This document shows, piece after piece, positions 7,341 through 36,772 of a stretch of 64,000 bases of DNA. The notes below the pieces were generated by a model. That model was given only the letters and a program-made list of their open reading frames with translations. It was not told where the DNA came from and did no database searches. Position 1 is the stretch's first letter; each line of letters opens with the position of its first letter. The DNA comes from Oceanibaculum pacificum (lineage in GTDB: Bacteria; Pseudomonadota; Alphaproteobacteria; Oceanibaculales; Oceanibaculaceae). A program made the translations under genes and the position numbers. Location of the stretch: assembly GCF_001618175.1 (NCBI RefSeq), contig NZ_LPXN01000001.1, positions 62,001 through 126,000 on the forward strand, in the 5' to 3' direction.

Positions 7341-7356
7341 TGTTTCACGTGAAACA
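7341..7356. other. parS: parS centromere site
   Basis: TGTTTCACGTGAAACA is a perfect 16-bp palindrome identical to the conserved ParB-binding site. It lies between the rho/qor terminator and the end of qor, and is 9.8 kb from parB. Confidence 0.93.
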
Positions 7357-13801: not shown

Positions 13802-13817
13802 TGTTTCACGTGAAACA
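13802..13817. other. parS: parS centromere site
   Basis: A perfect TGTTTCACGTGAAACA palindrome lies in the 75-bp gap between mnmE and mnmG, 3.3 kb from parB. Confidence 0.94.
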
Positions 13818-15726: not shown

Positions 15727-16336
15727 ATGCCGGCAATTTCAGGACCGGACCACTTGCGGGCTCATCTTCCTGTTTCACGTGAAACACTGGATCGGCTGCA
15801 AATCTATGTCGATCTGTTGCGGAGATGGCAGAGGGCGGTGAATCTCGTCGGCCCCAGTACGATCGAGGAGGTCTGGACCCGGCATATCCTCGATTCGGCT
15901 CAACTTCTGGCCTATATTCCCCAACAGGCAAAGAGTTTGCTTGATATTGGAACTGGTGCTGGCCTCCCCGGCCTTATCCTGGCTATCATGGGCGTCGAAC
16001 AGGTTCACCTGATGGAATCGGACGCCAAGAAGGTGACTTTTCTGCGCGAAGCGGCTCGATTGACGAAAACCAATGTGACGTTGCATCACGGCCGGATCGA
16101 AACACTAGAACCGTTTCCGGTCGATGTCGTGACGGCGAGAGCGTTAGCATCGGTCGAGGGACTACTGGATTATACCAGGCCATACCGGCAGGCGGACAGT
16201 GTGTGCCTCTTCCTCAAGGGAGGGGGGGTCGAGCAAGAGCTGCGGCAGGCCGCAACGCGTTGGAAAATGACGGTAAATCAGTTTCCAAGCGCCACGGCGG
16301 ATGAGGGCGTAATCCTTAAACTGGAGGCCATACGCG

Positions 16337-16347
<11 letters not shown>
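15727..16347 (+). CDS. rsmG: 16S rRNA (guanine-527-N7)-methyltransferase
   Basis: RsmG (GidB) methylates G527 of 16S rRNA using SAM. The 206-residue product has the SAM-binding LLDIGTGAGLPGLILA near residue 78 and the later VDVVTARALASV. The ATG at 15727 immediately follows the mnmG stop, so an upstream in-frame codon at 15694 is rejected. A perfect parS site is embedded in codons 15-20 (PVSRET), so this stretch must serve both the protein and ParB. Its 3' end overlaps parA by 11 bp. Confidence 0.96.
15771..15786. other. parS: parS centromere site inside rsmG
   Basis: A perfect TGTTTCACGTGAAACA palindrome lies within the rsmG coding sequence, 1.4 kb before parB. The reading frame encodes V-S-R-E-T through it. 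Confidence 0.93.
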
Positions 16348-17160
<813 letters not shown>

Positions 17161-17161
<1 letters not shown>

Positions 17162-18156
17162 TGGCACGGGAAAAACGACAGAATCTCGGGCGCGGCCTCG
17201 ACGCGCTCCTGGGCGAAGACAGTGACGATTACGCCGAGTTGGACCGCTTGCGGCAAACCAAAACCGTGCCAGTGGAGTATCTGGAGCCTGGGCCGTTTCA
17301 GCCCCGCCGCTATTTCGATCCCGAGGATATGACGGCGCTGATCGAGTCGGTGCGCGACAAGGGTGTGCTTCAGCCGATCCTGGTGCGCCGCCACCCGGCC
17401 GATCCGACGCGCTACCAGATCATTGCCGGCGAACGCCGCTGGCGCGCCACGCAGGAGGCGCAGCTGCACGAGGTGCCGGTCGTCATCCGTGATTTCGACG
17501 ACCGACAGGCGCTGGAAGTAGCTCTGGTCGAGAACATCCAGCGCCAGGATCTGACGCCGCTGGAAGAGGCCGAGGGCTATCAACGCCTGATGGAGGAGTT
17601 TGGCCATACCCAGGAAGAGCTGGCGACTGTCATTGGCAAGAGCCGCAGCCATATCGCCAATATGATGCGCCTGCTCGGCTTGCCGCCGCTGATCCGCCAG
17701 GCGGTGGAGGAGGGGAAGCTGACCGCCGGCCACGCCCGCGCCCTGCTCGGCGCGCCGGAATCGGAGGCGCTTGCTGCCCAAGTCATCAGCAAGGCGCTGA
17801 ATGTGCGCGAGACCGAACGTTTGGTGCAGAAGGCCAAGGATGGCGCGACCGAGGGCGGCAAGCGCCGCGCTTCCGGTTCCGGACGCCGCGCCGGCGGCGA
17901 AAAGGATGCCGATACGCTGTCGCTGGAACGCGACTTGTCGGCACTGCTCGGCCTGACCGTGTCGATCGATTTCGAATCCGGAGCGGGCGGCGTTCTGGCG
18001 ATCCGGTATCGCACGCTGGAACAGCTCGACGATGTGCTGTCGCGTCTTAGCCGCGGCGGCGGCCGGGCGGAAAGGATGCCTGCCGACAGGGATGCGGGTT
18101 ACGAGGATATAGATTCCGACGACCCGCTGGTGCCGTCGGCCGACCCCGAGGATTGA
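17161..18156 (+). CDS. parB: Chromosome partitioning protein ParB
   Basis: ParB binds parS, spreads along DNA as a CTP-dependent clamp, and activates ParA. The 331-residue product starts at the ATG that overlaps the parA stop (TGATG) with the typical [14 protein letters not shown]. The CTP-binding GERRWRA box lies near residue 92, followed by the helix-turn-helix [27 protein letters not shown] that reads parS. A low-complexity linker leads to a C-terminal dimerisation domain. Its stop abuts that of convergent holA. Confidence 0.96.
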
Positions 18157-32796: not shown

Positions 32797-32870
32797 TGGC
32801 TGGGGCGCCAGGATTCGAACCTGGGATCACGAGACCAAAACCCGTTGCCTTACCGCTTGGCCACGCCCCA
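32797..32870 (-). tRNA. tRNA-Gln (anticodon UUG)
   Basis: The minus strand folds into a cloverleaf starting TGGGGCG, paired with CGCCCCA, discriminator G and an encoded CCA (32797-32799). The anticodon loop is TTTTGGT, giving UUG, and the T-arm has GGTTCGAATCC. It is the only tRNA-Gln gene in the window and lies between the cyclase and the PodJ-like cluster. Confidence 0.95.
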
Positions 32871-33011: not shown

Positions 33012-33434
33012 ATGAGTGGGATGGCCCAGGACAAACCCCAGCATAAAACCAAGGATAAACCCCAGGATAAGCGCAGTGTCCCCTGGAGCATCAAGGGGGT
33101 TTCGAGCGAAGCCCGGGAGGCCGCGCGCGCCGCCGTCGACGCTTCCGGCAGGACCATGGGCGAATGGCTGAGCGAGGCGATCCGTGCGGCGGCGGAAAAA
33201 CAGGCGGCCCCGGCACTGCCGGAGGCGCCGGCCCGGATCGAGCCGTCACCGGTGGAACTGGCGGAATGGCAGGCGCTGGTCGAGCGTATCGAGGCGGCGG
33301 AACGGCGGAATGCGCTGATGGTGGCCCCGCTGCATGAAATCCTGACGACCATAGCGCGGCGGCTGGAATCGCTGGAATCCCGGATCGACAAGCGGACCGA
33401 GAGCCCGGTGGAAACACCCGAAGATCAGCGGTAG
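33012..33434 (+). CDS. Small protein with the PodJ-type N-terminal module, copy 1
   Basis: The 140-residue protein begins with a charged repeat rich in Asp, Lys, Pro and Gln (DKPQHKTKDKPQDK), then the module PWSIKGVSSEAREAARAAV...GEWLSEAI. The same module opens the next two genes. A short coiled-coil-like C-terminus (RRNALMV to LEIR) follows; no membrane span is visible. The ATG at 33012 is chosen; ATG at 33021 is an alternative. Function unknown; the module suggests the same partner as PodJ. Confidence 0.7.
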   Translation: MSGMAQDKPQHKTKDKPQDKRSVPWSIKGVSSEAREAARAAVDASGRTMGEWLSEAIRAAAEKQAAPALPEAPARIEPSPVELAEWQALVERIEAAERRNALMVAPLHEILTTIARRLESLESRIDKRTESPVETPEDQR

Positions 33435-33467
33435 CGCCGGTAGCGGCGCACGGAGCGGGGGAGCGGC

Positions 33468-33938
33468 ATGGCACAGATATCACCCTGGAGCGTCAAGGGC
33501 GTTCCCTATGAGGATCGGGAGACCGCAAAGGCGCTGGCCCGGCAGGCCGGCCTGCCGCTGGGGAGCTGGCTCAGTCAATTGATCCGTGAAGCGAATGGCG
33601 CGCCGGTTGTGCAGGAAACGCCCCCGGAAGTTTCTTCAGACAGTCCCGTTTCGGAGCCGCTTGAAGCCGATGCCTTCACCTATCCCGTTGCCGACAGCTT
33701 GTCGTCGGATGTGGCGGAACGCCGCTTCGCCGCCTTGCAAACGCAAATCGATGCCTTGACGAGCCTGCTGCGCGATAGACCGCCCGCCGCCATGGCGGAA
33801 TCGATCGGCGAGACTGGCGCGCCGCTGGAGCGCGCGGTGATGCGGCTGTCGGAGAGAGTCCAGCAACTGGAGCAGGAAGTGTTCAACGAGGCGCCAGGCC
33901 AGGCCGGAATGATCGGCCGGCTGCTCGGCCGCCGCTGA
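33468..33938 (+). CDS. Small protein with the PodJ-type N-terminal module, copy 2
   Basis: The 156-residue product starts MAQISPWSVKGVPYEDRETAKALARQAG and reaches LGSWLSQLI with the same spacing as its neighbours. The middle is acidic; the last 60 residues can form a coiled coil (ERRFAALQTQIDALTSLLRD, RLSERVQQLEQEV). There is no membrane span. It sits 33 bp after copy 1 and 103 bp before the large gene. Confidence 0.75.
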   Translation: MAQISPWSVKGVPYEDRETAKALARQAGLPLGSWLSQLIREANGAPVVQETPPEVSSDSPVSEPLEADAFTYPVADSLSSDVAERRFAALQTQIDALTSLLRDRPPAAMAESIGETGAPLERAVMRLSERVQQLEQEVFNEAPGQAGMIGRLLGRR

Positions 33939-34041
33939 CGGCACTACGATGCTTAACGCCGCCGTCGCACGGTAGTATGATTGCCCGAGAGGGAACTACC
34001 GCTGGCTCGACGGCGGTGCGAAGAGAAGGGAAGCCGGTGCG

Positions 34042-35925
34042 GTGAGCAAAGCCACGCCCTGGAGCGTCAAAGGGGTCGACGAGGAAACCCGGGCCCTTGC
34101 CCGGGATGCCGCGCAAGCATCCGGCCTGACGATCGGCGCCTGGATCGACCTGGCGATTCTGCGCCATGCTGGCCTTTTGCCTGTGGAAGAGAATCGCGCG
34201 CCTGAACTGGTTGATTCCTCTGATCAGGCCGCCGCGCTGGAAGCGCAGGCGGAAGCGCTGTCGCAGACCGCCGATGCCGCGGAACGGCGGCTCAACGCCA
34301 GTCTGAAGCCCGCCGCGCTGGATGTCGCCCAGGCCGCGCAACGCATGGTGGCGCTGGAATCCTCCTTCCGTGCCGGGGCGCCCTTTAAGCCGAAGCCCGC
34401 CATACTGGACGAGGCCGAGAGCGAAAGCAGCGAAACGCCGCCGGAAGACGGTACCGAGCCCGACTTCTCCCCGCCCATGCCGGAAGAGTCAGTGACGATC
34501 GAAGCGACGGCGGTGCCGCTCGAAGATGCGGAGAGGCTGGTCCGCGACGAAACGACCCCGGCAGAGGCGCGGCGGGTGTCGGGCAAGATGATCGTCGGAA
34601 CCGGCGTCCTGGCGCTTGGCATCGCCGCCGGGGTCGCCCTGATGAGCCAGGCCGACCGGATCGGTCTCGGCCCGGCCTTGCAGCGCCTGGAGCGAATGGT
34701 GGAGGGCTGGGTCGAGGATGTCGGCTCCAGCCTGCAACGCGAGGCGCGACCGGTCGAGCGAGCCGAGACACCGCCACCGTCACAATCGGCCCTTCCGGTC
34801 GAGCCGCCCCCGGCCATCGATCCGGCAACCCCGCAGGCCGTGGCCGCCGCCGCGCCCGAGCAGAGCGAGACATTTCCGGAGCCGCCGCCGCCAACCCCAG
34901 CGCAGGCGCTTCCAGCCGCGCCGCGCACTTTGCCGCCGCTGCGCGCCACCGAGGCCGCGCCGGAGCGACCGCCCGAAAGTGCCGCCGAACCGAAAGCGCC
35001 GGAGAAAGTGGCGGCCTTGACAGCGGCGGCCCCAGAGCCATCCGCGGCGGAGCAGCCGCCAGCCCCGCCACCGGCCCTGTCGCGGACCCGGCTGAATGAT
35101 CGTTCGGTGCCGCGTGAGCCGGCGGCCTTTGCCCGTTGGGTGGAGGATCGCGCGAAGCAGGGCGAACGCATGGCGCAGCACGATCTGGCCGTGCTCTTCG
35201 CCCAGGGCGAGGGCCGGCCGCAGGATATGGAGAAGGCTGCCTACTGGTTCCGCGAGGCGGCGGTGCAGGGAGTGGCGAACGCTCAGTATAATCTGGGCGT
35301 CCTGTACGAAACCGGCCGTGGCGTGCAGCAGGACGATGTGCGCGCGCTGCTCTGGTATCACAGCGCGGCCGAACAAGGCCATGCCAAGGCGCAGCATAAT
35401 CTGGGCAGCTTCTATGCCGCCGGCCGCGGTATCCCGGTCAGCTATGGCGAAGCGCGTAAATGGTTGCGCCGGTCTGGCGATCAGGGCTTTGCCCCGGCCT
35501 TGCGCGACCTTGCCCGCATTGAGGAGCGGGGCCTGGGCGCGCCGCCGGATATCGAGAAAGCCCGCGCGCTTTACGCCCAGGCCATGGTGCTGGGCGATGA
35601 GGAGGCAGCCAAGCGCTTGACGGCACTACCACCGGTTCCGGCCGGGGCCATGACAGTGGCGGCCGGCGCTGGCGGCGATTCCCTGGTGCTATCGCCTGAA
35701 GCCGAGCGCGAAACCATCCGGGCGGTACAACGTTTTCTGGCGGCCGGGGCCGCCGATGTCGCGGCCGATGGGTTGATGGGAGAAAAGACCCGCGAGGCGA
35801 TCCGGGATTATGAGCGCAAGGCCGGCCTGCCGATTACCGGTCAGGTCGGGCCGCGCCTGCTGAACCATATGATCTTGCGCTCGGTCCGCAGCGCCGGGGT
35901 GGATCGCGGCACTACCGTCCGGTGA
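34042..35925 (+). CDS. PodJ-like polar localisation protein with SEL1 repeats and peptidoglycan-binding domain
   Basis: The 627-residue protein starts at GTG with [23 protein letters not shown]...IGAWIDLAI (residues 5-40), the PodJ N-terminal signature. A short coiled-coil stretch spans about 60-110, one membrane span covers residues 183-203, and a Pro/Ala-rich periplasmic linker covers about 240-345. Three to four SEL1 repeats lie at about 375-525 ([32 protein letters not shown]), then a peptidoglycan-binding domain at 552-612. PodJ organises the new cell pole in Caulobacter; this homolog is shorter because the cytoplasmic coiled coil is reduced. It converges on ispE with a 14-bp overlap. 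Confidence 0.85.
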
Positions 35926-36772
35926 GCCGGGTGGCCACGGCCCACCAGCCCGGCCGCTCGCGGCCGATGGTATGCGCCGCCTCGGTTGCCGCATCCTCGG
36001 TTTGCATCAGCGCGAAACAGGTTGGACCGCTCCCCGACATCCTAGCCAGCAGGCAGCCGGGCTGCCTCTGCAACAAGTCAAGAACATCGGAAATAGCTGG
36101 TAGCAGCGCGATGGCGGCCGACGCCAGATCGTTACGCTGAGCCGCCAGGAAGGAAACCAGCGCAGTCGGATCGGTCGGTATTGCCTCAGGCGCGGGCGCG
36201 CCGAACGGCCCCTGCCGTGCCTTGAAGACCGCCGGCGTTGAGAGCGGCTGGCCGGGATTGACCAGGACCAGCGGTAGTGCCGGCAGCGCCACCGGCTCCA
36301 GCGTCTCGCCGACGCCGCTCAGCCGCGCGGACCGGCCCAGCAGGCAGACCGGCACATCGGCCCCTAGCTGTAGCGCCAAGGCGGCCAGCACATCCTCGGG
36401 CAGGGCAATTTTCCAGAGATTCATCAGCGCGTGTAGAGCCGCCGCCGCATCGGCCGAACCGCCGCCAATACCGGAGGCGACCGGCAATGTCTTGGTCAGA
36501 CGCAGGGCGGCCTGGGCGGGCCGGCCGGCGGCCTCGGCCAGCAGCCGGGCGGCGCGCAGCACCAGATTGTCCGGTTCCGCCGACAGCGCGGCGGCAAAGG
36601 GGCCGTCAATCTTCAGGGAAAGCTGGTCGGACGGCGCGGCTTCGATATGGTCGCCCTGACCGGCGAAGGCGACCAAGCTGTCGAGCAAATGATAACCATC
36701 CGCCCGCCGGCCGGTCACATGCAGGAATAAATTCAGTTTGGCCGGCGCCGGCCGGCCGATGGCAGCGGTCAT
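35912..36772 (-). CDS. ispE: 4-diphosphocytidyl-2-C-methyl-D-erythritol kinase
   Basis: IspE phosphorylates CDP-methylerythritol in the MEP pathway to isoprenoids. The 286-residue GHMP kinase shows [21 protein letters not shown] near the N-terminus, the ATP loop [18 protein letters not shown] near residue 95, and C-terminal [13 protein letters not shown]. The gene follows the TPR lipoprotein gene by 8 bp on the same strand. Confidence 0.96.

Follow-up and report, generated by a model that had tools for sequence, protein, structure and literature searches.

A conserved gene trio sharing a ribbon–helix–helix-like N-terminal module, with a PodJ-like member, in the origin-proximal region of Oceanibaculum pacificum

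We analyzed a 64,000-nucleotide stretch of the Oceanibaculum pacificum genome (contig NZ_LPXN01000001.1, positions 62,001 to 126,000), referred to in the following as the window and numbered from its first letter. The window carries a trio of forward-strand genes, here called small1, small2 and large, which occupy positions 1, 2 and 3. The trio and its setting comprise the following features, with the basis for each given in parentheses:

7341-7356, 13802-13817 and 15771-15786, no strand assigned: three perfect parS sites (site search)
16337-17161, forward strand: parA (context)
17161-18156, forward strand: canonical parB, with the ParA-binding box LGRGLDALL (context)
32797-32870, reverse strand: tRNA-Gln (TTG), directly upstream of the trio (side observation)
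33012-33434, forward strand: small1, 140 aa, position-1 gene; N-terminal extension, ribbon–helix–helix (RHH)-like module and coiled-coil-like tail (open reading frame)
33081-33194, forward strand: RHH-like module of small1, PWSIKGV...AIRAAA (alignment)
33468-33938, forward strand: small2, 156 aa, position-2 gene; module, coiled coil and C-terminal P-x-E-R-A-x-x-R-L-x-E-R motif (open reading frame)
33483-33593, forward strand: RHH-like module of small2 (AlphaFold2, Foldseek)
33822-33857, forward strand: small2 signature, PLERAVMRLSER, confined to the small2 line among the proteins scanned (motif scan)
34042-35925, forward strand: large, 627 aa, PodJ-like, GTG start, position-3 gene (open reading frame)
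34057-34170, forward strand: RHH-like module of the large protein (alignment)
34585-34653, forward strand: predicted transmembrane span of the large protein, about residues 182-204, with a basic N-terminal flank (hydropathy only)
35167-35601, forward strand: Sel1 repeats of the large protein, four stretches, outer limits approximate (Pfam Sel1)
35707-35871, forward strand: PG_binding_1 domain of the large protein, E = 2.2e-9 (Pfam)
35912-36772, reverse strand: ispE, conserved downstream neighbor (synteny)

An earlier note, made from the DNA alone, had described this trio and claimed that the two small proteins, of 140 and 156 residues, have no membrane span. The open reading frames agreed in coordinates and sizes, and a hydropathy search found no hydrophobic span in small1 or small2 and one, at about residue 182, in the large protein. 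The latter consists of the module, a cytoplasmic part of ≈180 residues, a single transmembrane span, the Sel1 repeats and the peptidoglycan-binding domain. Its NCBIfam matches (MerG, MotX and similar) were Sel1 cross-matches and were rejected; a PodJ model was sought in NCBIfam, and there is none there. The note had also asked whether the small genes might be absent or broken in close relatives, but in all three Oceanibaculum congeners small1, small2 and large were intact and in unchanged order. Comparison with the congeners gave dN/dS values of 0.21–0.47 for the three genes; these ratios are rough, several dS values being greater than 1 and near saturation.

Each of the three proteins has one N-terminal module of ≈40 residues. 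The residues common to the trio after PWS(V/I)KGV are R (+5), A (+8), (A/S)G (+15/16) and G-x-W-(L/I) (+20 to +23), and 13 of the 44 columns in an alignment of the trio modules (A1) are invariant, so that the equally spaced motif claimed previously was borne out. Tryptophans lie at fixed places in the module, S and K alternate along its strand, a pattern shared with Arc-type strands, and G-x-(S/T)-x-G opens helix 2; in several lineages the PWSVKG strand is lost and the two helices are kept. Searched in six frames with the large module, the complete genome gave small1 (E = 6.8e-8), small2 (E = 2.4e-6) and the large protein from which the module was taken. A fourth match (E = 0.025, at about 62.2 kb of the window) runs antisense inside an amtB-like gene and was taken as chance; with this match set aside, the genome has no module beyond those of the trio.

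The fold of the module was approached by scanning 48 diverse modules singly against Pfam, with matches below the cut-off counted. The families matched by more than one module were NikA-like (9 modules), TacA1 (7), FitA-like RHH (6), HicB (5) and Rv0623-like (2), all of which we take to be ribbon–helix–helix families. No module passed the curated cut-off of a Pfam RHH family, the best score being 19.9 bits for TacA1, against a cut-off of 21. When ten modules were reversed as a control, none matched Pfam, while four of the same ten matched RHH families in the forward direction. The AlphaFold2 model of small2 has an extended start followed by helices at residues 14–26 and 31–42, with pLDDT about 90; in this monomer the strand shows up as no more than an extended segment. 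Foldseek searches of the PDB gave leading matches that were mainly RHH proteins (Arc, MatP, AvtR, AmrZ, CopG and NikA), no E-value being individually significant, and a second model led to MazE, VapB, KacA and AtaR, again with no E-value significant for so short a domain. Module profiles found no significant relatives among PDB sequences, and hits to two designed repeat proteins were rejected as compositional. A natural two-module protein was modeled by AlphaFold as two separate strand–helix–helix units; a paired ribbon was sought in this model and none was seen, alignment depth being available for the second module only. From the profile matches and predicted structures, we conclude that the module is very probably RHH-like, that is, a divergent RHH domain.

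The module was present in 98 of 387 sampled alphaproteobacterial genomes, typically in 1–3 copies, and not, as the earlier note had allowed, in hundreds of unrelated proteins. The co-occurrence of small and large forms that it had proposed to map was found in ten family groups (f1, f17, f87, f98, f102, f104, f107, f112, f113 and f120), which have the complete trio in fixed order, adjoining ispE–TPR–ETF-QO. In about 20 families ispE lies beside at least one module gene, and the TPR, ETF-QO, UDG and Slt genes are conserved there too. The named records with a trio are mostly Rhodospirillales-type MAGs, and those with a single long PodJ-like protein are mostly Parvibaculum and relatives. Single-module genomes also occur, many of them PodJ-only or small2-only.

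Across families, the nearest neighbor of a module shared its position in 51 of 66 cases, more often than expected by chance; 5000 permutations gave a mean of 22 and a maximum of 46. The small1 line is the loosest of the three and small2 is tight, with a C-terminal P-x-E-R-A-x-x-R-(L/M) signature that was absent from all small1 and large proteins scanned and that recurs in family f83, in the small gene next to the long PodJ-like gene. All of the large proteins checked have Sel1 repeats, and nine of ten have PG_binding_1. On these sequence comparisons, each position forms an orthologous line of its own, and the trio is conserved as a unit of ancient origin.

Several individual loci deserve mention. 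The position-1 proteins of five loci (L092–L094, L135 and L140) are only 56 aa long, with little beyond the module. L048 and L179 (genome G019) show four module genes in a row, one encoding a two-module small2-like protein. In genome G340, the search found one in-frame TGA in small2 (L096:7529-8053), either a sequencing error or a sign of a decaying gene. Outside the Alphaproteobacteria, small module proteins are found without PodJ-like neighbors; in L236, L239 and L240 such a protein directly precedes a kinase/FGE-sulfatase-type fusion gene, the protein kinase and FGE-sulfatase-type domains of which were checked in L239 and L240.

The window is the centromere- and origin-proximal region of the genome. 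Its three parS sites accompany mnmE–mnmG–rsmG–parA–parB and are all that the genome contains at up to 1 mismatch, with 0 expected by chance. The trio starts about 15 kb downstream of parB, and none of the three sites is more than 26 kb away from it. Trio and parB lie within 15–20 kb of each other in families f1 and f107; the congeners and, in f107, genomes G338 and G111 are similar to the window in this distance, but in genome G272 the trio lies 1.2 Mb from parAB. No parS site was present in the trio loci retrieved from other genomes. PopZ (DUF2497) was found in 25 of the 27 trio or PodJ genomes checked, including that of the window.

In eight loci of relatives (L180, L178, L098, L179, L110, L051, L053 and L105), the position-1 protein consists of one or more modules followed by ParB domains. 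Genomes with such a module-ParB at position 1 include G204 (L178), G117 (L098), G019 (L179), G341, G376, G063, G010 and G084, and most module-ParB genomes also have a canonical ParB; in G019, an assembly that is 93% complete, the module-ParB is the only HTH_ParB match found. All three of the ParB_N, HTH and C-terminal dimerization domains are present in L180, L178, L098 and L053, and the first two in L179. The CTP-binding motifs (GERRWRA and EN(L/M)-type) are intact in L098, L178, L179 and L180 and degraded in L053, L051, L110 and L105. The ParA-binding box (LGRGLxALL), present in every canonical ParB checked, is absent from all module-ParBs. The L178 protein matches the solved Caulobacter ParB structure (6t1f) with E = 6e-54 from residue 68 onward, i.e., after the module. 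Residues R173 and G201 of ParB set its parS preference (PMC7383237); read against that work, our alignment shows both, the parS-specific class, in L178, L098 and L179, and S at 201 in L180. The L180 protein (534 aa; L180:1037-2638) has four degenerate modules ahead of its complete ParB, which suggests multivalent contacts.

In the window, ParB profiles at E ≤ 1 found no ParB domain or remnant in small1, and ParB may have been lost from position 1 in this lineage or never have been there. The 152-aa position-1 protein of L181 retains a weak trace of the C-terminal part of ParB (E about 8e-4). In a ParB tree the module-ParBs cluster, on long branches; on a tree of concatenated ispE, TPR and ETF-QO, used as a species proxy, the ParB form is scattered, with at least 3 changes. 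These changes imply either an old fusion that was repeatedly lost, perhaps also in the window lineage, or multiple origins, and both alternatives point to a functional tie. Contrary to the first impression of a PodJ-specific element, the RHH-like domain is also found on ParB proteins and on small non-alphaproteobacterial proteins. The label "mini-PodJ" given to the small genes proved misleading, since small1 and small2 are two separate ancient lines, one with a C-terminal motif of its own and the other with a position taken by ParB in some lineages.

How the three proteins might work together is suggested by the fold. RHH domains are obligate dimers, and for this reason the modules of small1, small2 and the large protein may pair with one another. 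If they do, the large protein, fixed to the wall, would collect small1 and small2 as heterotypic partners on the cytoplasmic face. The trio would then form one envelope-linked scaffold held together by module pairing, with the wall-anchored PodJ-like protein drawing in partners that carry the module; this is our preferred reading, held tentatively at somewhat less than even probability. In lineages with an intact ParB at position 1, such an assembly would fasten parS-loaded ParB clamps, and with them the centromere, to the envelope, probably at a pole, in a manner comparable to the membrane attachment of DNA by Noc. In the window organism the scaffold would be kept, and the chromosome would be reached, if at all, through other partners, e.g., the canonical ParB or PopZ. 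Since small1 of the window is without a ParB part, the link to DNA is less firm there and depends on the relatives and on the location of the locus. In favor of the scaffold are the RHH matches, the position test and synteny, the Sel1 and PG_binding_1 domains of large proteins from many families, the module-ParBs, the proximity of trio and parB in f1 and f107, and the frequent presence of PopZ. Counting against it are the unpaired two-module model, Pfam and Foldseek matches that individually fall short of cut-off or significance, the distance between trio and parAB in G272, and the non-alphaproteobacterial module proteins with neighbors of an unrelated kind, a protein kinase gene among them. 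A broader reading, possible but on balance unlikely, is a chromosome-to-wall tether of Alphaproteobacteria, in which an RHH-type pairing code would bring together in one assembly a CTP clamp of the ParB type (or a reduced derivative of it), an adaptor with a coiled coil, and a PodJ-like protein anchored in peptidoglycan, the N-terminus of PodJ being a relic of this system.

RHH-type modules normally bind DNA, and the trio modules could be true DNA-binding domains as well. The large protein would then bind DNA from its anchor in the membrane and so hold the nucleoid or origin, and small1 and small2 would be heterodimer partners that set sequence specificity or repress the locus. The families matched (NikA, TacA1, FitA, HicB, Arc and CopG) are DNA binders, the strand has the alternating S and K of Arc-type strands, helix 2 has the start described above, and parS lies close to the locus in two families. 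However, the strand, PWSVKG, is the very part lost from several lineages that keep both helices, and DNA binding is already supplied by ParB where the strand is weakest. We regard this reading, the main rival to the scaffold, as rather unlikely.

The earlier note had instead cast the small proteins as competitors, adaptors or oligomer caps. Taken as regulators, competitors or caps that limit the growth of large-protein oligomers, with no role in DNA positioning, they would account for the presence of soluble proteins with the same module encoded beside the large gene, and for position-1 proteins that are hardly more than a module. The conserved motif and coiled coil of small2 and the full ParB at position 1 in several lineages argue against it, since both partners thereby have effector parts of their own, which makes them more than caps. 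We consider this account improbable; among the roles suggested, adaptor-type partnering fits best, while nothing specific speaks for a competitor or cap. About equally improbable is that the genes are simple tandem paralogues, duplicates that retain an ancestral module and have independent products. The single-module genomes do indicate that the parts are separable, but the fixed small1–small2–large order in ten families, as separate orthologous lines with the same neighbors, points to a joint function.

In the open PMC literature, to the extent of the available text, we found no description of the RHH start, the small module genes or the module-ParBs. In the available excerpts of three PodJ papers (PMC8980812, PMC9684454 and PMC10127582), likewise, neither the module nor the first ≈40 residues of PodJ are treated as a domain.

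PodJ is a model polar scaffold. If its start is an RHH domain common to two conserved partner genes, one of them a ParB in several lineages, this would offer a concrete molecular idea for the link between polar scaffold and centromere. It would also provide a set of tests in tractable relatives, including module swaps and localization of module-ParBs, and a shorter version with additional subunits may be present in many alphaproteobacteria that lack a clear PodJ homologue.

The large protein resembles the PodJ of Caulobacter, Agrobacterium and others in its cytoplasmic N-terminus, single membrane span, periplasmic Sel1 repeats and peptidoglycan-binding domain, and the long single-copy PodJ-like proteins of Parvibaculum and others begin with the same module. 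It differs in being accompanied by two small module genes and in having only ≈180 (about 181) cytoplasmic residues before the span. In the excerpts available, Caulobacter PodJ is described as having a long cytoplasmic coiled-coil (CC1–6) and disordered region of ≈600 residues (PMC9684454) that binds PopZ and PleC (PMC9684454, PMC10127582, PMC8980812), and its dissections assign functions to coiled coils 4–6 and the disordered region (PMC8980812, PMC9684454, PMC10127582). The short cytoplasmic part of the large protein leaves no room for this region, and we therefore call it PodJ-like rather than PodJ; the homology proposed in the earlier note held for the span, Sel1 repeats, peptidoglycan-binding domain and module, but not for the long coiled-coil and disordered region.

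Polar anchoring of a ParB–parS complex, as proposed for the trio, is also what the PopZ–ParB centromere tether provides, and PopZ co-occurs in 25 of the 27 genomes; the trio, however, contains no PopZ-like sequence, and the anchoring proposed for it is wall-linked and module-mediated. The module-ParBs of the relatives are, like the Bacillus nucleoid occlusion protein Noc, ParB paralogues in which an N-terminal element could link a DNA clamp to the membrane (PMC8429893). In their case the proposed link would run through pairing of the module with a membrane protein rather than through an amphipathic helix, and the specificity residues are parS-type, not NBS-type, in three of the four intact module-ParBs; the window itself has no such ParB. 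Finally, the module shares with RHH proteins (Arc, CopG, TacA/FitA-type antitoxins, NikA and MatP) the strand–helix–helix layout, the spacing and the start of helix 2, and these proteins led both the Pfam and the Foldseek matches. It is set apart from them by matches below the curated cut-offs, by its fixed W residues, and by its bearers, which are membrane scaffold, adaptor and ParB proteins.
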